Positions 15,223-31,377 of a stretch of 64,000 bases of DNA are shown piece after piece. Source of the DNA: Isoetes taiwanensis (Eukaryota; Streptophyta; Lycopodiopsida; Isoetales; Isoetaceae); NCBI GenBank assembly GCA_021234155.1, contig JAJEKV010000018.1, positions 13,309,552 to 13,373,551 of the forward strand. Direction: 5' to 3'. The first letter of the stretch is position 1; the number at the start of each line of letters is the position of its first letter. The position numbers and the translations under genes are program-made. The notes under the pieces were generated by a model, which was given only the letters and a program-made list of their open reading frames with translations, had not been told where the DNA came from and did not search any database.

Positions 15223-18200
15223 CTATGCATAAGATAACACACTCAAATATGACTCAAACATCAACTGTCGCTTGGCAGGAGCAAGCGAAGAGCAATGGTA
15301 AGCCTTAACAATTCTATCTTGTGCGTCTTGGAGGACAACTGCAGGAGGAATATCCAAACCCTGAAAGATAGACAGTCTTCTGCGCTTCCAGATGGACCAT
15401 AACAACCATCCTGATGCTAAATGAAATGCTTGGCTCCGCAACTTATTCCAAGTATCCGGATAGACAGCCAGAAGCACTTGCTGACTTGTCAATGTCACAT
15501 GAAAAGAAAAAGCCCAAGACCAAACAGTGGAGATGAACACATAAAAAAAGAAACAATGCTCAATGGTCTCGCCCCTTTGCTTGCACAAAGGCGCGAGGCC
15601 GACACTCGAGGATCAAATCGTGGACAAGCACGCTCACACGAGGACATCTGTGAAGAATCTCGCCACCAAAGCACACGACCACCTTAGGATGGAGTAGTTT
15701 ACCCCAAGCCCAAGTCCACATAACGCCTCCAATTAGGAGGTGAAAGTCAAGGGACCACCTAGTGGATGGCGTAAGGATATCACTATTGACAAGCGGCCTA
15801 TACATAGAATTCACAAGCCTATGCTCATGAATACTCGGTGGGAAACCCACATGCACCCTTCAATAGCCTCGAGCAACCAATGGCGTAGTACTAGCAACCT
15901 TTTGCCAAATAGGTCTCGTCCCCATCGAGACAATGAGAATTTTGTTTGAAAGATTTGCCATGTCGCTAACCGCCGAATCATACCATGCCGCAAACTGCCA
16001 AGATTCCCGCTAACCTCCAGTAGCTTGAGTTAATGGATGAACCGAGGCACAAAGTGGAAGATTATTTTCCACGGTATCCACCAACAAGGGGCATTCAAAT
16101 GATGACATGCAACAAGATCAATCTGAAATAGGATCCGTATTGTCTCCCATGACTCCAAAGAAGCCTTTCAAAAAAGGAGAGGCATTAGGAAAAGGGCATA
16201 GCTGATAAAAGAGACTCCAAGGAAGAAGCGGTTTTAATGAAGCTTTTCCAAAAGGAACACAATGTGCAAGTGACTGCTTCACCAACCGCACTCCAGGTGA
16301 GTCAAACATATCCTTAAGAATAAGGATCCTCCAAATGAATTTAGAAATTAGAATCTTACTCAAAATGGAAGTCTCGTCATACCCAAACCACCTCGCAAAT
16401 TTTGGCTTGGTGCATTTGGACCATGCAACCTTGACCACAAAGATGCTCCTCGGTCCCACCCCAAATAAAGTTACGGACAATCGTAACAATCACCGAAATT
16501 TTGACCGAGAAGCCGGAAGGCGAGGCCATATAGACATGGGAATTGCTTAAAACATACTTAGCAACAAAGTTATTCGTTACCGGCGAGAGAGCTTAGCAAG
16601 ATTCCACCAAAACAAATGCTTACGTAACCCTTCAATGATAATATCCCAAGCATCGAGGTAGAAATATGAATACCCACAGGTATACCAAGAAGTTTAGTAG
16701 CCTTCCCATGAAGAAGCACCTTCCAAGGAAAATCCAAGAAACAAGAAGAAGCACAACCCCATCAAGCGTCCATAATGCGTAACACTTTGGCCAACCAACA
16801 AGAACTCCGGATGCTAAAGAGAAAGTATCAAGAAGAAGCTTTGCATTCTCAAGATTGTCCAGTGTCGCCAACAAAGAAAGAGGAACGTGTCATCGCGATA
16901 CCGGGTTACAAATTTCCCGTGAACCATCCTCCATACTCAACTCCCCGCACTATCCCATCCTCGCATGGCCTTAGCAAATAGGCGTGGAGAGGACCCTCAA
17001 CTACTATTGTGAACAAAAGTGGAGCTAATGGGCAACCTTGGCGAACACCTCGCCCAACCAAAAAGGGTTCCCCACAAACAACACGATGGATCGTCTTGAG
17101 ATATGGAGCTTCATAACATCAGCGGTGAACTCACGACCAAAGCCCAATGTTAAGAGGCTTTTTCTAAAAATTCCCAATCTACACCGGCATATGCTTTGGC
17201 AAAATCTAACTTAAGATAGACTATATGGCCGACCTTTCAATCCGCCCAATACATACCCTCATAAGCAGCAGCAACATTGTCTAAAATGCTCCTCCTTGGC
17301 AAGAATCCAGATTGAGTAGGAGAGATTGATACAGCCAAGACATCACGCACTTTGTCTGCAAGGGCCTTCGCAAATATTTTATACACGGAAGACAATAATG
17401 TGATAGGGCGCCAGTCAGATATTGTCTTCGGCTCTTTACACTTGGGAATAAGAGAAATACAGCCAGTATTAATGATCTTATCCAAACTTCTGAACCTACG
17501 AAACTCACAGAAAGCATTGTAAAGATCGCAACCCAACCAATCCCAATATTCCTGAAAAAATTCCACTGGGAAACCATCCAGGCCAGGGCACTTGTCTTTC
17601 TTTAAAAGAGAAGCTGCTGAATGTAAGTCATTGATGGTGATCTCTGACTCTAGGTGCTGACACAATGGGGTGGACCTTCGACAAGACTGCAGATTGCATA
17701 TCCTCCTGAAAGGGCAGCTGATGCCTGGAAAAAAATGAGAAAAAGTGGTCGTGAAGATACTGCTTCAATTGAACCGGATCAGAACACTCTGAACCATCAG
17801 GCAAAATAAGGGAGTTAATAGATGCCATCATACGCCTTCTCTTAGCGGCCCGAAAAAAGAAGTGAGAGCATCTATCACCAGATCTAAACCATTCTAGTCC
17901 AGCCTTTATCCTAGCTTGATTCACATGAGCTGTCTCAATGGCTTTAATCTCTGTCAAGATTTCTTTCTCTCTAATACCAGAAGAAGGGGCAAGAGCACGA
18001 CATCTCTGTAACTCCTGATACAACCCGGTTAATTCACCTCTAGTCCGAACCACCTGAGCATGACCCCACTGCTTTGCAAAGGATTTAGCAGCCCTGAGAG
18101 CAGCAACAATACCAGCCATGCCACCACTACGAGAGAATTCATGAGACCATGCATTCCGACAACCTGCAATGAATTCACTATCCTTCAGATGTTTAGTATT

Positions 18201-20663: not shown

Positions 20664-20884
20664 GTGAGAGTGTGCATCAGTATGTAGAAAGATTCAATCT
20701 TTATCTGGTCAAATGTCAAGTTAATCAAGTACCTAACCACACTTTGCATCTTGTAGCTTCAGTAATCAGAGATTTGAGCAGCAGACCAAGAATACACAGG
20801 AAAATGCTCAAAATTCAAAACGATAAGGATTTGACACAATACACAAAGCTTTTACAAAAGCTACTGAAATTGCTGACACATTAG
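20664..20884 (+). pseudogene. Ty3-type gag, 3' continuation
   Basis: Resumes the gag interrupted at 15089: SVHQYVERFNLYLVKCQVNQ and following residues up to the stop at 20882-20884. A further readable piece follows near 20886-20970. No downstream pol genes or second LTR were recognised. Confidence 0.6.
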
Positions 20885-21900
20885 ACAAAATATGGGGTCT
20901 CCAAAAGGCCCTTTATGAAAATAGAGAAAATCCACATCAGCTTTTTGCTCTAGCCAATCAGAGATGAGTGCCTTTATTCTTAATCCATACATACCTACCA
21001 TGGTTGGCAGCCACATGTCTTATTTAGGTAGGCTCTCTTTTCCCTAGGGGACTCCCAAATCTACCACATTTTCCTATGAGATCCATCTATAAACATTTCC
21101 CAATGTAGATTTCAAGCCATTTACTCACGTGCAATTAATTTTGGGTGTTTCTTTCCATTTGTGGTTTTGGCAGGATAAACCACAGGGTTTCGAAAATGTA
21201 TGGGAAACCTATTTTGAAGCAGAAGCAGAGAAACGTATCTTCACCGCCTATGTTCTCTGCCTTGCTTCGGCGTTCCATTCCTCCCAGTAACTCTCCAGGT
21301 TTGTTCCTGCCCCGTTCACCTTCTCGTTGCTATCTTTTCAAGCTTTTTCGATCAATTTAGCCCCAGGTCAGACCTTTCTACATTTCCTTGAAGAATCTTT
21401 GCTTCATCCCTTGCTTGAAGCATGAATCTGGCAATAAACCTTCACGGTAGAACTTGCAGCTTTTTCTCACTGATTGTTTTCCCTCTTTCTTTCTTTTTTC
21501 CTTTGCGTGATGCAGTGTCGATGATCCATTTTATAATCCCAGCCGGAGGGGCCAGTAGGGAAACAAGTCTTATATGGTCCATAAAATTGATTTTTGTATT
21601 GATTTATCCTTGTTATGCAGATAAAAGGAGCTTATAAATATTCTTATCTTTACCATCAGGCTGCGAAGGTCCTGCTAAGAAATACACAAAGGCAATAGAA
21701 TACAGTTCATTCCAGTTCCAGTTGTTGCACGTCAAGGCTATGGCAGATGCTGACGGCAAAGCTATGGCGAGTTTCCTCTGTGCCTCTGCTTTCTTTGTCC
21801 CAGGGGTTATTTGCAGCAAATTCCAAAGACATCTGCCAGAACCCATTGTGAAGAACGGGAAACAGAGTGTCCAGCAACAGCGGCATCATTTGGAGTAGCC
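20885..21900. other. region upstream of kinase pseudogene
   Basis: Mostly short frames. A segment at 21198-21291 (MYGKPILKQKQRNVSSPPMF...) ends in a splice-donor-like CCAG|GTTTG and could be an old exon, but it is not recognised. No other gene is seen. Confidence 0.3.
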
Positions 21901-21904
21901 AAAA

Positions 21905-22208
21905 TCCCACCTGGGTCTTGAGTTGTTTGCTGTAAAATCGATTGAGTTCTGTGATAAAACTAAGAACAATGTCAAGGCTTTGGAAAATGAGATGCAAATT
22001 TTGCAGGATTTGGACTCTCCAAGAGTTGTGAAATGTTTTGGTGGTGATTGAACAGTGGAAAATGGGAAATCAATGCGAAATGTGTTTCTGGAATACATGC
22101 CCGGTGGTAGCTTAGCTGATTTGATGAAGAAATTTAAGGGAAAATTGGATGAGCAGCTGGTTAGATCGTACACCAGGGACATTCTTCGGGGGATTGATTA
22201 CTTGCACA
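21905..22208 (+). pseudogene. MAPKKK-like protein kinase fragment, N-lobe side
   Basis: Reads ELFAVKSIEF (the Lys that binds ATP), KALENEMQILQDLDSPRVVK, then an in-frame TGA at 22049-22051, then FLEYMPGGSLADLMKKFKG and YTRDILRGIDYLH ending at 22207. This is the plant MAPKKK17/18/NPK1-like kinase pattern from the VAVK region to just before the catalytic HRD loop. The glycine-rich loop upstream is not readable. The hAT element at 22209 cuts the gene here. The rest of the loop is at 31065. With a stop and an 8.9-kb insertion it is a pseudogene. Confidence 0.85.
22201..22208. repeat. target site duplication CTTGCACA, left copy
   Basis: Eight bases repeated exactly at 31065-31072. They flank the outer hAT element. 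Confidence 0.9.
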
Positions 22209-22639
22209 CATAGTTGGCATAGAACGCCATTCTATGCCATGGGAACGGCAGAACGGCGTGTTGAGGAAGAATCCGTGCTGCTGTGCCGTTCATGTGCTTA
22301 AAAAATGGGAAATTTTCTTGATGGCAAGAACGCCATGCGGAACGGTCGTTCTGCCCCAAATTAAGCCGTTCTGAATGCCAAGCACGCCAAAACAGAAACG
22401 AAGCGCCAAAATCTTGTACAATACCAATTATTTCCTCCCAATTCTTGGGGAGGTATAACCCAACCTCCTCCTGCCTTCTATAATCAGCAGAAAAATGCTC
22501 CAATCTACTGTTGCTGCTCAAATTTTAGCCGCTGAAAGCGTTTTCTCACACGGAATGAAGCTTTGAGGTAAGATCTTCCAGTCATTCTGATCTAAGTTTA
22601 TTTGTCACTCCATCTATAAAAATCTGGCCCTGTTTCCAT

Positions 22640-22783
22640 TACATGCCTGCGCCCAGTTTCCTCTACCCTCTCTGCTGGTTTAAAGCCAGGTTGGGGAAAA
22701 TCTATACTTGTGATGCGCACATTGGGAGGACCACCAGGCCGCAATGCCAAAGCCTTGATGAGACATGGCCAGGCAAACCTGTA
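22640..22783 (-). pseudogene. captured GRAS-domain fragment
   Basis: Within the minus-strand frame 22792-22598 the peptide runs WPCLIKALALRPGGPP, VRITSIDFPQPGFKPAE and RVEETGRR. This is the highly conserved VHIID-adjacent block of plant GRAS transcription regulators, closest in wording to the LISCL/SCL type. About 48 residues are recognisable; real GRAS domains have about 350-400. The fragment is antisense to the transposase and lies inside the hAT termini, so it looks like a gene piece captured by the element. The sequence upstream of it (AG at the start of the match) resembles a splice acceptor. Confidence 0.75.
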
Positions 22784-22929
22784 ACCAGCCATGGAGCACC
22801 AGATTATGATCCTTGTATCTTTCCATTGGCACCAGATTCCGACCCACCATTTGGGAATCCAGAAAAGCCATGTTATAATAGAAATCTATATCATGTATTC
22901 GGCTGTAATCCAACTTGTTTTTCAAAGAT

Positions 22930-23526
22930 TTAAACAGGAAGACAAGATTTAAACAGGATTTAGACAGTTAGTGATCTCTCTGTCCATTTGGGCACGCCGA
23001 TGGCTGAGAGCCGGATATGAGCAGAATCTTGGAGCTTTTATCTCTGTTCATCCCAATCTGTGACCTTTGGGCCTAGGCTATAGGGCTCCAATTCGAGCCA
23101 TTCTGCCGGCATGCTTTTCTTCTCTGTAGTCTTGAGGACTCTGTTTTCGGCTTTAATTAGCCTAGCTTTTTCTCTAAGTTTTGGGGAGTACCAAAATTTC
23201 CAGCTCCAATTGTTCCTCTAAGCACCACAATTGTACGAAATCCACACAGAATTGTAACTGGGCAGCTAAACAGAAACAGAAAATCAAATGATAGACATAA
23301 AATTGAGCTCGTAAGCTTAGGTAGTTATAATGAATAATAAGATGGCCTTGGAACATCCGGATAAGTTAAAAGGTCTCAAGTTAATGAATTAGAAGAAGTT
23401 AAGCAAGAAATTATTGCGCCAGCTCTTTATCTATGTCACATGGGGCATCAAATGAAGGAGCAGGTTGAGAGGATGCATATTAAAATGCCAGGAGCAAATA
23501 TGAATATAAAATACTACTATGAATAT

Positions 23527-23528
<2 letters not shown>
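22930..23528. other. hAT interior, non-coding
   Basis: No gene recognised between the GRAS fragment and the LINE tail. Confidence 0.4.
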
Positions 23529-23557
<29 letters not shown>

Positions 23558-25708
23558 GGGTAAGAGTGTGTTTTTTTTGTTATTAATAATAATAATAAAG
23601 ATACAGAGAGTCCCCAATGGGACAAATAGGAAGCATTAGGGCTATTATACGGGTTCTCTATGCATCAATGATGTGTGTACTAAGGGAAGTCCTATTTCCA
23701 CAACAACATAATGGTAGAGAGACCCCATCTGGTCAGTTACTCAAATTGCTTTCTCCACTAAACTCAGATTGTTCCACCATTAGATCTATCATGAAAGTCT
23801 AGGTCCTCAGAGCTCATCCAATGACACTTAAAGTAGTTATAAAATCCTTCAATCTTACCAATTCTGTCCAATCCCTTATTGTAACTCATCCCCATCTTCC
23901 TATGGTGGGACAATGCCATTAAAGCAACTTCCTTATTGAAAAGACTCTTAAGTTTCTCAATAGAGATGGATTGCCCCCCCAAAGTGACATCGCACCGATG
24001 TCTCCATATAATCCAGAGAGCCACGCTAACCAGGGAAGCATCAATACAATCCCTGTCCAAGATCATTACAGCGTTCGGCCACCCAAGTTGGTGTATATGT
24101 AGTCTCATAATAGGGCATACCCAATACCAGAATTCAATAATTTTTGGACAGAAGAAGAGATGTGAAAGAGATTCGCTAGCCTGGCACCCAAGAGGACATT
24201 GGTCTGTAGACACAATTCCTCTATGGACCAGCTTCACTTTAGTGTTGAGACCTCCTTGGAGAGCCTCCCATCTAAAAAATTGTATTCTCCTAGAGCATAA
24301 GGTTTTCCAGGAGTTTGCTAAGAGGAGCTTAGCCACTGATCCATTCACTTGAAGCCTAGCCTCTGCTTTAAGAGGCTCAGATTCATCACAAAGGGCCCGA
24401 TAGATACTTGCAACATTGTATGTCTCCTTACCTGCACAGGACCACTTTTCCTCAGGACCAGTAGCCCTTGAGAGAAGCTTAACATTATCTAGAATTTTTC
24501 GTAGTATCTTTCTATCTCCCTCCCCTGCTCTTTGCACTTTGAGTCTAAATTCCATCCAAGAGATCCATCTATCATTTTCCCAAAGATGCTGCAATTTTAA
24601 GATCCCATGGTCTCGCCATTTCTTAAAGATGCGAGGATGAACTAATGCCAAGGGACGTCCATTCTCTTCCCATACATGAATGTTCCAGAATATACTGGCT
24701 TTCCCAGCCTCTTGAGGTATAGTCAAGGGGGAGCATACTGTTTGCACCTCCCTCCAAGCATGAAGAATACGCCTCATGACTGGGGAAGTGCCAGGGGCCA
24801 CCTTAAAGTTACAAAAAGAGGCTCCTAGTTCATCCCTAGGAAGAGATGGTTTACCTTGAATCTTGCACAGATCAAACCAGTGCTTAACAAATGCCAAAGC
24901 AGGAGATGTACCCCCTTGTAAAACTCGCCAGACAAATCTGGCCGCCAGAGCTTGAGCCTGCGTGAAAGGGTCCTTACATCCAATCCCTCCATCCCTTTTA
25001 TCTCTACACAGCTCGGACCAAGCAACGTTAGCCATACCCCCCCAGATGAACTTTCTAATGATAACCTGTATTTGATCATATATTCCTTTCTGGGCTACCA
25101 TCACTGACGAGGAATATATGTGAGAGCTAGCCAGAACAGCATTAGCAACTGTTACTCTTCCTGCTATAGATAATCCTTTAGAAGACCATAACCCAACCTT
25201 TTTTCTAAGTTTGTCTAAAATAGGAGCCCAGAGACCCTTCATATTATCTGAGACAGAAAGGGGCAAACCCAATAGCTTAACTGTTTCCCCTGCAGCCACG
25301 ACTGGGAAGCCCAATCCATTAGCACGAGGGTCAATATCTCCATCTAAAGCCCATAAAATGGTACATTTGGTGGCATTTAGCCCTATGCCTGATATAACCT
25401 CAAACGCAATCAATATCTCACGAAAGGAATGAAAGCTGCCATCGTCATACCTGAGGAACATAAAGGTGTCATCCGCATATTGCATGATTGTGAGTTTTTC
25501 GGCTTGATTCGGTAAAACCAGACCACTGATGCCCCCTTCCGAGACTTTGAGATTAACCATCCTTGTGAGAAGGTTGGCCATAATTAAAAAAAGGTATGGG
25601 GCAAGCGGGCAGCCCTGCCTAATACCCTTCCTGAGATCAAAGAGACCAGAGGGTTCACCATTAACCAAGACAGATGCAGAGGCAGTAAGCAGCAATGAGA
25701 GTGTAGAT
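23529..25708 (-). mobile_element. 5'-truncated LINE inside the hAT element
   Basis: Tail appears as a T run at 23529-23556. The element is truncated within the reverse transcriptase, near 25700. The 3' untranslated part contains a TTATTAATAATAATAATAA stretch. I could not find a target duplication, so the exact left end (minus-strand 5' end) is uncertain by about 10 bp. Confidence 0.75.
23764..25695 (-). pseudogene. LINE ORF2 C-terminal part, open for 643 codons
   Basis: An unbroken frame starting inside the RT fingers/palm: SASVLVNGEPSGLFDLRKGI, then RQGCPLAPYLFLIMAN (motif B region) and QYADDTFMFLRYDD (catalytic YADD). It continues through the thumb and connection (WSSKGLSIAGRVTVANAVL, KFIWGG) to a zf-RVT region near residues 490-560 with CPLGCQASESLSHLFFCPKI. 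The upstream endonuclease and first half of RT are missing. The open frame suggests a younger insertion than the LINE at 15090. There is no natural start codon; the first residue shown is a Leu codon. Confidence 0.85.
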
Positions 25709-25710
25709 CA

Positions 25711-25831
25711 ATGGAGCAACAGCGGCACATTGTTATGTGCGCCTACTTGGGAGTCGGCCATGTAAAGCCCATGCTAGTGCCTGCAGAGAAGCTTGCAAAG
25801 CTAGGCTTCAATATCACCTATGTCTTCCCTA
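25711..25831 (+). pseudogene. captured UDP-glycosyltransferase N-terminal fragment
   Basis: ATG at 25711 opens MEQQRHIVMCAYLGVGHVKP, then MLVPAEKLAKLGFNITYVFP. This is the N-terminal beta-strand and GH-x-x-PM-L motif of family 1 plant UGTs, where His of the GH pair is the catalytic base. Only about 40 of about 470 residues are present. It stops at a pyrimidine-rich stretch and is followed by the transposase exon. It lies inside the hAT termini, next to the truncated LINE, and is likely a captured gene start. Confidence 0.7.
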
Positions 25832-25950
25832 TGTATTTTTTTTTTCACCTATGTATTTTTTTTTTCTTTCTCTTTCTCTAATTCTGAATTCACCATTGTA
25901 TTCTTTTCTAAGAAACACATAAATTTATTTCTTTTCCACTGTTTTGCAGA

Positions 25951-28216
25951 ATGTCAGGAAGGAAATCTGTTTGGTGGGACGAAGTTGATGTTATAGGCCC
26001 TAAATCCTGGATATGCAGGTATTGCAAAATCAACAAAACTGGTGGTCCAGAAAGGATGAGGGCACACTTGATACATGAGGAGGGCAAAGATATCGTCTTT
26101 TGTATGAGCATTAGTGATGAAAAACGAGCACAATTGAAAGAAAAAGCTATTGAACTAGATGCAACTAAGGCAAGGAAGATTAAAGTTTTTCATCCATCTC
26201 GTGGCATAGATGGATCTTCTGCATCAAGGCAAGCAAACCTAGGTGGATCCTCGACACTAACTAATTCTTATTCAGTTGAAATGGGCCATGGATCCTTGCA
26301 TTCTTACTTCAAGAGTCCAGCAACAAGTATGCCTCCTCCAACTACCACGAGAAAAATGAGGCAACAAGACATTGTAACAGTCCTTGATAAAACCAGAAAG
26401 AAGGAAGTGGATGTTGCTATTTGTAGGGCATTGTATATTAACCATACTCCCTTTCGCATTGTTGAATGCCCTTATTTTCAGGATGCTTTAAATCAAGCTA
26501 TTGCATATGGACCTGGTTACAGACTTCCAAATCGCAAACAGGTATCTGGTTTTTATCTTAAAGCAGAGAAAGAGCGGCTTGGAGAAGAGATGTTAAGAAG
26601 TGCTCATGAATGCTGGAAAAGATATGGAGCTACAATTATCGGTGATGGGTGGATGGATGGAAGGTCAAGATACATACAAGGTATTGTCGTATACTCTGAC
26701 GGGAAAGTTTATTTTTTAAAATCCTTTGATACATCATTAGGAAAAAGAGCAGAAGATTTAGTCATTATCTAGAAGGAAGCTGTTGAATTTGTGGGACCCG
26801 ATCATGTAATTCAGTTTGTGGCAGATGGAGAAAACACAAACAGGTCTGCTGGTAGCATGCTTTCTGAGGCCTATCCGCATATTTGTTTTAGTCCATGTAT
26901 TGCTCATTGTATAAATAACATGATGAAGGACATTGGAAAATTAGATTGGTGCGCCACTATAGAGAAATCCAGAAAAATTGTGACCTTTGTAAATTCACAT
27001 TCAAAGGTTTTGACTATGTTCGTAAACTAAGCAAGGATAAGGACCTTTTGAAGTACTGTGAGACAAGATTTGCATATAATTTTTTGATGATGGAACGTCT
27101 TGTGGAGTGTAAAGACTCGATTCGTCACCTCTTCACCGACCCAAGTTTCCTTCGTTTGCAAGAAGCAAGTTTTGGTACATGTATGTTTTTCATTATTATA
27201 TTTAATATCAAGTATTGGTTCATATTTTTATATGAGTAAGGATTGATTAAGAATTTTCTACAGGCAAAGATGCTATTGCCATTGCATTTGATGGAGCATT
27301 TTGGAAAGATCTTGAGCATCTTGGTAAGATCGGGGCAAGGATGACAAAGATGTTGCGTCTTGTAGATGGTTTGCAGCCTTGCATTGGCAAAGTTTATGAA
27401 GGTCTAGATCGTATGGTGGAGTACTTGAATGGCATTGCAGAAGATGACTCAAAGCTTGATGATGTGAAAGAAATTTGCTCATCCACGTGGACTTCCTATC
27501 ACTCTGATTTGCAATATGCTGCTTTTGTATTAGATCCTGAGTTTCATGGCCTTAATCAAGAAAAAGATAAGGAGGTGTCTAAGGGATGGGATGGAACTCT
27601 CATTCGGTTGATAGCTGATATAGAGAAAAGACGCAATGTCAGAGCAGAATTACGTACTTACAGAAGTTTAGAAGGGTCTTGTAGTTCTCCTAATGCAATA
27701 GCTGATATGAAAGAAATTGATCCAGTTGAATGGTGGAAAAATTATAGGTCCTCAGCTCCGTCGTTGCAAACACTAGCGACCCGAATATTGAGTTAGAATG
27801 CATCATCATCCCCTATTGAACAGATATTTAGTAGATTTGGTCACATCCACAATAAGAAAAGGAAGCGCCTCGGAGTACAAAAATTAAATGATCTTGTATT
27901 TGTTAGTTTAAACCTGTAGTTGATGACCAAGATAATGAACCCAACTAAACAGAAAGTTGTATCAATTGGGTGGCACGATGAGGAGGAAGAGGAAGAGGAA
28001 GAGGAGGAAAATGTCAACGAGGTAGCAAATGTTCAAGAAAGTGCTGGTGTCTCAGAGGAAGAGGGATCTATCAATGAGCATGTGGATATTGAAGATGTTG
28101 AGGATGATAATGAAAATGATGAGAATGAAGAGCATTGGGAAGCTACTGATGATGATGATCAAGAAATCCTGCAAAGACGACATGCACGGACTCGTAGTGT
28201 GGCTTTTATGTATTAG
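25951..28216 (+). pseudogene. hAT transposase (BED finger, DUF659, hAT dimerisation), decayed
   Basis: A splice-acceptor-like TTTTGCAG precedes the ATG at 25951. Residues 1-60 are a BED zinc finger (KSWICRYCKINKTGGPERMR with a following His). A DUF659-type RNase-H-like core follows (FRIVECPYFQDALNQA, IIGDGWMDGRSR). There is an in-frame TAG at 26770-26772, a one-base frameshift near 27020 (between VTFVNSHSKVL and KLSKDKDLLKYCETRF), and a likely 83-bp intron at 27181-27263 that keeps phase. The C-terminal hAT dimerisation block (PSLQTLATRILS, TAG at 27794, then SSSPIEQIFSRF) leads to another TAG at 27917 and an acidic tail to 28216. Three stops and a frameshift make it non-functional. It would cut and join element ends in the nucleus. 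Confidence 0.9.
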
Positions 28217-28497
28217 GCTTTGGCTCAAGGATTTTGATAATTTATTTTTCCATTCACTAGTTTAGGCTATTCAAATGATTAGGCTTTTGAGTTGCATTGC
28301 AAAATCTATTTTGATTGAAGTACATTTACAGACTTTAAGATTTTGTTGTTATGAATTAACATATTTGGAGGTCATATCTCGAAATATTTCAATGTTTCAT
28401 TTTAAGTACTTATTTGAAAAATGCTGTTCCGTTCCGTGCGCATGAGCTTGCCGTACTCGTTCCTTAAGGCTTGCCATTCCTAAAACCGTTCCGTTCT

Positions 28498-28505
28498 ATG
28501 CCAAC
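28498..28505. repeat. target site duplication ATGCCAAC, left copy
   Basis: Repeated exactly at 31053-31060 around the inner element. The duplicated bases are part of the outer element's terminal repeat. Confidence 0.9.
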
Positions 28506-28914
28506 CAGGGATAGGTTCTATACGTACAAAATTAAAATTCCTGACGTATAAAGTCAAAAAATACGTATTTTTTAATAAAATACGTATTTAACGTATTAAA
28601 ACCTCGCCGGCCGGAAGAAAAAATTTCGCACGACGCGAAAGTTTCGCGGAAAGCGTCGCTGAAAATTTTTTCGCGACGCTGAACAAAAACTCAACCACAG
28701 ACGCTGAACGCCAAAAAACAATTTTTTTTTTTTTTTTTCCAGACATCGAAACCTTCCAGATCGCGTCGCTGAAAAATTTTCACAGACGCTTTCGCTGTTT
28801 TCGTAGACGCCAAATTCAATATATATATATACAAGAAATTTAATGCGTCCTACGGTGCATGTCCGAGTTTTAGCATGTTCCTATGCTGCAAGTTCTTCTC
28901 GTGCCCTACATTCT

Positions 28915-29530
28915 AAAAGAATCTTTTAAGAATACTCTAAATTCATAGATTCTCTAAGATTCTACCAAGGTTCTCTTGGAGGTTTCGTGGAGATTCCTCT
29001 AAATTTTATAAGATTCCCTCTACATTCCATTAGATTTCCGTAGATTCTCCAAGATTCTATGAAGATCTCCCTAGATCCCCTTAGATTCCCTTAGATCCCT
29101 TTAGACTTTATGAGATTGCCCTGGGTTCCCTTACATTATATGAGATTCAAAGAGATTCTATAAAGATTCCCCTAGATACTCTAAGATTTCATCAACATTT
29201 GCTTAGATTCCCTTAGATTTTATGAAGATTCCTTTAGATCCCCCAGATTTTAAGAGATTCCCTTAGGCTTGTAAATATTTTCCTAGATTCTCTTACATTT
29301 TATAAGATTTTTTTAGAATCTATTAGATTCTTCTGGATTCCTTTACATTCTAGAACTTTTTAGAACATTCTAAGACTTTCTCCCTACATTCTAGAACATT
29401 CTAAAACTTATTAGAACAATTTGGAGCTTTCTGGAATAATTTTCTTAGATCCCCCCTAGATTCTCTTATGTTCTATAACTTTCTAGAAGATTCTAGAACT
29501 TTCTAGATTCTAGAACTTTCTTGAACTAGC
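28915..29530. repeat. degenerate AGATTC-rich array
   Basis: About 600 bp made of variants of CCCTTAGATTC and TAGAACTTTCT, with a loose period of 11-14 bases. It is non-coding. Confidence 0.7.
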
Positions 29531-29600
29531 TAGAATGTTATAGTCTATTTTATCTTAATGGGAACATTACCCTTAAGTATATTTGAAACATAAATTATTT

Positions 29601-30660
29601 ATAGAATTAATGCTTGGTCTAGTGGTTAGAATGGGGGGCTAGGGGGTCAATGGCCAAGGTTCGAATCCCCCACATAACATAAAAATTTTAAAAACCTTTT
29701 CCTAAGGAATGAGCATTCAACTTGGGCCGTAGGATCTTGGACCCGATCAAGGGTCGAGATCTCACCACGCGACAATAATTAAAGCAACGTGAGCCATAGG
29801 ATCTATTACATATAAATTCCCAAAGTCATGTGCACCGTAAGATATGTGCCAAGCCACGTGAGTCGTAAGATCTCGGATCGACGATCAGCATCGGATCAAC
29901 CTAGACCGTATGATCGATTACATATAATTCCCAAAGTCATGTGCACCGTAGGATGTGTCCCAAAGCAATGTGAGCCGTAGGATCTCGGACCGACGATCAG
30001 GATCAGATCAACCTGGACCGTAGGATCGCTTACATATAATCGGACGCAAACTCCCAAGCCATCTGGGTCGTAGGATATGTCCCAAAGCTACGTGAGTCGT
30101 AGGATCTCGCATCAACATCGGATCAACAGTCCTTGTTATAGAATTAATGCTTGGTCTAGTGGTTAGAATGGAGGGCTAGGGGGTCAATGGCCAAGGTTCG
30201 AACCCCCCACACAACATAAAAATTTTAAAAGCCTTTTCCTAAGGAATGAGCATTCAACTTGGGCCGTAGGATCTTGGACCCGATCAAGGGTCGAGATCTC
30301 ACCACGCGACAATAATTAAAGCAACATGAGCCATAGGATCTATTACATATAATTCCCAAAGTCATGTGCACCGTAAGATATACGTGAGCCTTAAGATCTC
30401 GGATCGACGATCAGCATCGGATCAAACTAGACCGTAGGATCGATTACATATAATTCCCAAAGTCGTGCACCGTAGGATGTGTCCCAAAGCAACGTGAGCC
30501 GTAGGATCTCGGACCGACGATCAGGATCAGATCAACATGGACCGTAGGATCGCTTACATATAATCGGACACAAACTCCCAAGCCATCTGGACAGTAGGAT
30601 ACGTCCCAAAGCTACGTGAGCCGTAGGATCTCGGATCAATGGTCGGATTCAGGAGGACAA
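29601..30660 (+). repeat. two tandem tRNA-like SINE-type units, period about 537 bp
   Basis: Each unit begins with a tRNA-like head. Unit 1 has box A TGGTCTAGTGG (29615-29625) and box B GGTTCGAATCC (29658-29668). Unit 2 has the same box A at 30152-30162 and GGTTCGAACCC at 30195-30205. The body has repeated CGTGAGCCGTAGGATCTCGG and CACCGTAGGATGTGTCCC phrases and TTACATATAATTCCC. The tRNA arms pair poorly, so this is a pol III-type SINE head and not a working tRNA. Unit 2 is shorter by a small internal deletion. Confidence 0.65.
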
Positions 30661-31052
30661 ACATAAGAACATATATATGTTATGATATATATATATATTT
30701 TTTTTTTAATCCGTAAAAAAAAAAAAAAAAAAACCTTTTTTCTTTTTTTAATTTTGCGTCGCCGTAATTCTTTTTCAGACGCATACGCCGAAATACTTTC
30801 GCACGTGGTACGAGAAGGTTTCGCGTTCGCTGTCTGAATAGTTTCGCGTTAAAACTGACGCGGTTTTCATCGCTTTGCAGACGCGAAAAATTTTCGCGTA
30901 CGCTTTCACGTTGTTTTCGCATACGCGAAAATCTTCCGACGCCGGAATTTTTTTTTGCCGTATTTTTTACGTTTTATACGGCAAATATGTGCCGTATCAT
31001 ACAATTCATACGTATTCCGTATAAAACGTACAGCGTATTGAACCTATCCCTG

Positions 31053-31072
31053 ATGCCAACTATGCTTGCACA
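31053..31072. repeat. right duplications of inner (ATGCCAAC) and outer (CTTGCACA) hAT
   Basis: 31053-31060 is the right copy of the inner duplication and also part of the outer terminal repeat. TATG (31061-31064) completes the outer terminus. 31065-31072 is the right copy of the outer duplication. Confidence 0.9.
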
Positions 31073-31190
31073 ACAAGAACATTGTGCACTGTGATATAAA
31101 GGGGAAGAATGTTCTGGTTGGATTGAATGGGGTAAATCTTGGAGATTTTGGATCTGACAAGTATTACGATGAACAAAATGAGGATTGTGT
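31065..31190 (+). pseudogene. MAPKKK-like kinase fragment, catalytic loop side
   Basis: Continues the kinase broken at 22208. In the same codon phase it reads LHNKNIVHCDIKGKNVLVG (catalytic loop with Asp, Lys and Asn of the HxD-x-K-x-x-N motif) and LGDFGSDK (DFG). It is recognisable to about 31165 and then runs into Copia-like sequence on the opposite strand, so the C-lobe is missing. The phase match across the insertion is the best proof that 22201 and 31065 were once adjacent. Confidence 0.85.
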
Positions 31191-31377
31191 AAAAGTACCT
31201 CTTATTTGTCCTGCTTCTGATGTTTAAAGGACCACAAAGGTCAGAATGCACAAGTTCAAGAACTTGGTTTGCTCGATTTTCTGATTTTTTGAAAGGCAGC
31301 CTATTTATCTTCCCAAGCATACATCCTTCACAAATAATCCCATCTGTTTTAATATTTTTGCATAAATATCTAGCATT
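31186..31377 (-). pseudogene. Copia polyprotein fragment (gag-pre-integrase/integrase start)
   Basis: Minus-strand reading CKNIKTDGIICEGCMLGKIN, then RLPFKKSENRANQVLELVHS and DLCGPLNIRS. This is the CxxC half of the HHCC zinc finger and the first integrase block of plant Copia elements. The piece just upstream of it in a Copia protein is found 3.2 kb away at 34570-34764, on the same strand. Confidence 0.7.

Follow-up and report, generated by a model that had tools for sequence, protein, structure and literature searches.

We describe a 64,000-nucleotide stretch of the Isoetes taiwanensis genome (NCBI GenBank assembly GCA_021234155.1, contig JAJEKV010000018.1, positions 13,309,552 to 13,373,551; hereafter the window) in which a remnant of a mitogen-activated protein kinase kinase kinase (MAPKKK)-like gene is interrupted by a DNA transposon of the hAT superfamily, here called the outer element. 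The complex consists of four nested mobile elements or repeats, namely the outer element, a long interspersed nuclear element (LINE), an inner element and a third repeat. We are almost certain of the following history: the outer element would have inserted into the MAPKKK-like sequence by cut-and-paste transposition, duplicating 8 bp of its target; a LINE would later have inserted between the left end and the transposase of this element; and, also later but either before or after the LINE, a high-copy hAT-like element that carries the third, likewise abundant repeat would have inserted into its right terminal inverted repeat (TIR). The borders and duplications, the nesting, the empty sites and the further copies in the genome were observed directly.

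Borders and further copies of the outer element

The initial annotation had drawn the borders of an 8.86-kb element correctly. Exact copies of CTTGCACA occupy both edges (22201-22208 and 31065-31072) as an 8-bp target-site duplication (TSD) and enclose 8,856 bp (22209-31064), nested insertions included. Since CTTGCACA occurs nine times in the window against a mean of 3.2 expected by chance, the 8-mer alone proves little. The left terminus, however, is exactly CATAGTTGGCATAGAACG (22209-22226), for which two matches with up to three mismatches exist in the window against 0.03 expected. The 18-bp inverted repeat that had been placed just inside both edges is contiguous at the left end only. Its right arm is split into 14 bp (CGTTCTATGCCAAC, 28492-28505) and 4 bp (TATG, 31061-31064) because the inner element has inserted within it, and only 12 contiguous TIR bases are found at the outer right edge (31053-31064). 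Without the inner element and one of its two TSD copies, the outer TIR is a perfect 18 bp. The hAT assignment of the insert also held: besides the 8-bp TSD and the short TIR, it contains a decayed hAT transposase.

Further copies, sought in 1.66 Gb of genome sequence on 1,110 contigs, share these ends. With the first 220 bases of the outer element as query, 40 of 59 candidates were scored, and 31 of the 39 other copies start no more than 2 bp from 22209, 21 of them at that very base. At the right end, where 40 of 96 candidates were scored, 35 of 39 other copies lose the match within 2 bp of 28505, at which point the inner element starts in the window. Left and right matches on the same contig and strand and no more than 9 kb apart were paired by eye, and all 21 resulting pairs were fetched. 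An 8-bp TSD with at most one mismatch directly adjoins the terminus in 17 of these paired copies and is exact in 13; as a control, flanks were cross-paired between different copies, and none of the 420 left-right combinations agreed. The 18-bp terminus, for which the initial annotation had proposed a genome search, thus marks the ends of other elements too. Sixteen short paired copies with a clean TSD measure 632-1,255 bp, as expected of internally deleted members. A long copy on C1074 (L041; 8,606 bp, TSD GTAAGATG) is 94.5% identical to the window in the transposase region and has neither the LINE nor the inner element. In place of the LINE, L041 has frames that by eye look like those of a Copia-like element.

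The interrupted kinase sequence

Removing the insert and one copy of the duplication restores a continuous kinase frame, which reads ...RGIDYLHNKNIVHCDIKGKNVLVG. The initial annotation had pointed to the exact phase; continuity is real, but as it follows from the target duplication it adds no evidence. A continuous frame would equally be found if the insert were an intron and the kinase gene functional, a reading to which we attach virtually no probability. A query made by joining the two kinase flanks directly to each other matches 14 places in the genome, of which two are the window's own halves, three match the right-edge repeat only and nine are paralogous. Judged by match coordinates, the insertion site is uninterrupted in all nine, six of which were also read base by base; two of the nine, on C1043 and C25, show equal identity and could represent a single locus that was assembled twice. 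The closest paralog (L010 on C1056) shows 97% identity across 407 bases and has no insert. Its open frame spans 455 codons, counted from a start codon that we chose, and encodes a full Pkinase domain (E 2.4e-64), with MAPKKK 2 as the best solved match. Two decayed copies (L011 and L014) carry a single CTTGCACA at the insertion site, which reads TCTGCACA in L015 and L016 and CCTGCATA in L017. The empty sites that the initial annotation had suggested looking for therefore exist, an intact gene among them, and none of the nine places carries the insert as an intron. Since the paralogs cross the site uninterrupted, the insert is not an intron of this kinase family in this genome. Further points against an intron are that the ends of the insert are transposon ends found elsewhere and that the window kinase has lost both its own ends and contains a TGA.

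The initial annotation had placed the element in the catalytic loop of a MAPKKK-like gene. The catalytic-loop region is right, but the host is a pseudogene fragment. Kinase homology is confined to 21920-22208 and 31073-31190 and is truncated at both ends, and a complete protein kinase domain is absent from the window copy, which lacks the glycine-rich-loop N-terminus of L010. Its left part is 96.5% identical to the intact L010 and 91% to the pseudogene L011. On the right, homology ends at 31190 because a minus-strand Copia-type fragment begins there. The in-frame TGA reported outside the insert is real (22049-22051); L010, L011, L015 and L016 have TGG at this position. The more distant copy L017 also has TGA at this tryptophan codon, which is probably a coincidence.

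We infer that the hAT element landed in a kinase sequence with earlier damage. L011 shares with the window an upstream flank (20878-21498, 89% identical) as well as 21886-21919 and has the same 5' break without any insert, which suggests that the 5' loss is older than the hAT insertion. That the kinase was instead a working gene until the insertion broke it is unlikely in our estimation, although two points speak for it: with 97% identity to an intact gene the remnant must be fairly young, and it is closer to L010 than to L011 (91%, with indels), which speaks against a simple shared ancestry with the latter. On the other side, the remnant lacks the kinase N-terminus, and if the window and L011 descend from one broken ancestor, the 5' loss came first.

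Elements nested within the outer element

The transposase of the outer element is broken. DUF659 (PF04937) lies in two blocks, one on each side of a TAG at 26770, followed by the C-terminal dimerisation domain Dimer_Tnp_hAT (PF05699, E 3.1e-5), and all these matches are above the curated cut-offs. With its first 273 residues as query, 141 of 810 candidates were scored, and the 147 matches obtained range from close copies to remote members of the hAT group. Given the decayed transposase and the split right TIR, the window copy is probably immobile, as far as its sequence tells.

The LINE lies on the minus strand with RVT_1 and zf-RVT domains in an open frame (23764-25695). A run of 28 T marks its left edge at 23529, and its right border at about 25682 is approximate, having been judged by eye from copies that lack the LINE.

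The inner element is bounded by the TIR CAGGGATAGGTTC at both ends and by an exact 8-bp TSD, ATGCCAAC. Among other scored copies of its family, 29 of 39 start no more than 2 bp from 28506, and the right ends of 35 of 39 lie equally close to 31052 (six secondary rows left out); a first look gave 1,572 left and 1,709 right candidates, which are rough numbers. Four members were fetched because both their ends were listed, and all four have an exact 8-bp TSD, with lengths of 601, 620, 5,073 and 8,306 bp. The window copy and all four members thus have the 8-bp TSD and short TIR typical of hAT elements. The two long members of this abundant family contain sequences that resemble host genes and that specialists might pursue. 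The 5,073-bp member (L045, C1039:10240700-10245870) encodes leucine-rich repeats (LRR_1, E 2.4e-13) and a piece resembling pentatricopeptide repeat (PPR) proteins, which scores below the Pfam cut-off (E 0.0006) and is 85% identical to an 864-residue open frame at C941. The 8,306-bp member (L044, C1040:6808380-6816780) has an ABC-2 transporter piece (PF01061, E 5e-10). LRR and PPR matches less than 3 kb apart also occur on C667, C1055 and C1032.

The third repeat (2,559 candidates at first look) lies within the inner element. Of five other copies fetched, the four besides L052 were extended; they have similar edges (from inner positions 313-318 to 2182-2197) and are about 1.4 kb long. The window has two copies of the 3' module of the repeat. 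The left edge is AT-rich or consists of AT repeats in the window and in most of the four copies; the right edge lacks such consistency. On C1092, the third repeat again adjoins inner-family sequence, and there a second copy starts head to tail at the 3' end of the first. The repeat also has a stretch with 10-bp periodicity. Near 29610-29670 we noticed, by eye and against the consensus, what we take to be a tRNA-like A/B-box stretch. A tRNA gene was rejected, as ARAGORN found none in 22000-31200 and Rfam none at the gathering score in 22000-31300.

All these parts lie inside one outer duplication, as they would if the 8.86 kb had moved as a single composite unit rather than having been built up in place. 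We consider this very improbable and disfavour it, since 35 of the 39 other scored right ends of the outer family (40 of 96 candidates scored) stop where the inner element starts in the window and, among the copies read, L041 and L054 are free of the LINE.

A UGT-matching tract upstream of the transposase

Within the outer element, about 400 bp just upstream of the transposase match the upstream DNA and the first ~40 codons of a gene resembling UDP-glycosyltransferases (UGT). The tract is in sense orientation to the transposase, ends about 120 bp before the transposase ATG and is split by the LINE (23264-23528 and 25694-25829). The matching gene, L055 at C1068, has an open frame of 496 codons, and the encoded piece is 93% identical to it at the protein level. 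Pfam assigned the 50-residue piece to no family, the best hit being an unrelated one (E 0.3), and matches to solved plant glycosyltransferases are weak (E 0.003-0.085). The name UDP-glycosyltransferase is our presumption from these structure matches and the full translation of L055.

The piece matches seven places in the genome, three of them in the outer transposon family (the window, C1074 and C1027), and at C1068 and C948 its coding part aligns with UGT-like frames that are open. The UGT-bearing copy on C1074 has a clean TSD. Upstream of the transposase in five other family members (L061-L065) and in the copy on C142 (L070), the tract is absent. The tract and a second UGT-like gene, at C948, have in common the coding start together with 42 preceding bases, and therefore this stretch is native to UGT-like genes. 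Farther upstream, C948 matches only a 58-column patch at 78%, so that for its upstream half the tract could derive from a transposon lying near the C1068 gene rather than from captured gene DNA. A more far-reaching scenario is promoter capture, in which one hAT sublineage would have taken up UGT upstream DNA, the ATG and the first codons, would thereby have brought its transposase under host-gene regulation and would have spread, for example to C1074 and C1027. Judging from the sequences, we give this scenario only a slim chance. Still, a gene fragment in a family that carries its own transposase gene is the most interesting part of the locus and worth specialist follow-up.

Table 1. Features of the nested insertion and of the kinase remnant, in window coordinates
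Feature	Position	Strand	Basis
Kinase pseudogene, left part (LELFAVKS to DYLH)	21920-22208	+	Homology to L010 and L011
In-frame TGA in kinase	22049-22051	+	Comparison with paralogs
Outer TSD, left (CTTGCACA)	22201-22208		Exact match to right copy
Outer hAT element	22209-31064	+	TIR, TSD, transposase domains, empty sites, other copies
Left 18-bp TIR (CATAGTTGGCATAGAACG)	22209-22226	+	Sequence match, other copies
UGT tract, part 1 (matches DNA upstream of UGT gene L055)	23264-23528	+	89% to L055
LINE	23529-25682	-	RVT_1 and zf-RVT in open frame 23764-25695
UGT tract, part 2	25694-25829	+	17 bp leader, ATG at 25711, first ~40 codons; 94% to L055
hAT transposase pseudogene	25951-28215	+	DUF659 twice, Dimer_Tnp_hAT; stop 26770-26772, later frame breaks; right limit by eye
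Right TIR of outer element, first 14 bp, then interrupted	28492-28505	-	End of relatives' matches
Inner TSD, left (ATGCCAAC)	28498-28505		Exact 8 bp
Inner hAT-like element, TIR CAGGGATAGGTTC at both ends	28506-31052		Termini, TSD, recurring ends
Third nested element, abundant repeat within inner element	28819-30688		Borders approximate
Inner TSD, right (ATGCCAAC)	31053-31060		Exact 8 bp
Right TIR of outer element, last 4 bp (TATG)	31061-31064	-	Junction reading
Outer TSD, right (CTTGCACA)	31065-31072		Exact match to left copy
Kinase pseudogene, right part (NKNIVHCDIKG...)	31073-31190	+	Homology stops at 31190
Copia-type fragment adjoining kinase remnant	31191-31370	-	Reads CEGCMLGKINRLPFKKSENRANQVLELVHSDLCGPLN; right border provisional

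Points against the proposed history and relation to known systems

Several observations weigh against the proposed history. Eight of the 39 other scored left-end matches start elsewhere than at 22209, and four of the 21 paired copies have no clean TSD: L040 has an indel in its left end, a good right terminus was not found within the fetched pieces of L031 and L042, and the flanks of L022 differ. By eye, no clear target duplication is seen around the LINE. An inner-family transposase was not found in the 6 of 18 listed open reading frames (ORFs) tested from the two long copies, and hence the superfamily of the inner element was assigned from TSD length and termini. Finally, no outer terminus with up to three mismatches was found in the 9.3 kb fetched around the UGT-bearing copy on C1027.

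In its 8-bp TSD, short TIR, transposase with DUF659 and dimerisation region, and short copies, the outer element resembles plant hAT elements of the Ac/Ds type. Unlike these, the window copy is broken and holds nested insertions, and its TIR measures 18 bp, compared with the 11 bp reported for Ac/Ds. PMC8903248 reports 8-nt duplications for every hAT element found in rice and maize. It also describes Pack-TYPE hAT elements, which like the outer element have host gene fragments between transposon ends and 8-nt TSDs. Such a fragment lies inside the outer family in the window, on C1074 and on C1027; however, the UGT tract stands beside a transposase gene in one and the same element, and the pipeline of PMC8903248 counts elements as autonomous whenever they match a transposase. 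Because of its transposase pseudogene we therefore do not file the outer element as Pack-TYPE.

The inner family is similar to hAT-type miniature inverted-repeat transposable elements in its 601- and 620-bp copies, short TIR, 8-bp TSD and high copy number, but differs from them in that two fetched copies span 5 and 8 kb and contain gene-like fragments. The third repeat shares AT repeats at the left edge, in the window and in most of the four copies, with the Micron/SaTar elements, and Micron is among the microsatellite-targeting Mutator-like elements (MULE) treated in PMC5907723. In contrast to these elements, the right flanks of the third repeat are not consistently AT repeats, and we identified neither a TIR nor a TSD for it; we do not claim membership.

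Overall, the locus is a nest of known kinds of elements in a pseudogene and reflects ordinary genome history. Its empty sites are found within one genome, the order of nesting can be read and the pseudogene is fairly young, which makes it a clean textbook case that should be useful for annotating and relatively dating mobile elements in Isoetes taiwanensis.

Neighbouring sequences

The fragment that cuts off the kinase remnant on the right (31191-31370) presumably belongs to Copia, judging from its motifs, and its start recurs at three other places with 90-92% identity. Upstream of the kinase remnant, minus-strand ORFs between 15223 and 19587 of the window resemble a further LINE, with a reverse-transcriptase-like ORF at 17237-17665, as read by eye from the ORF list.

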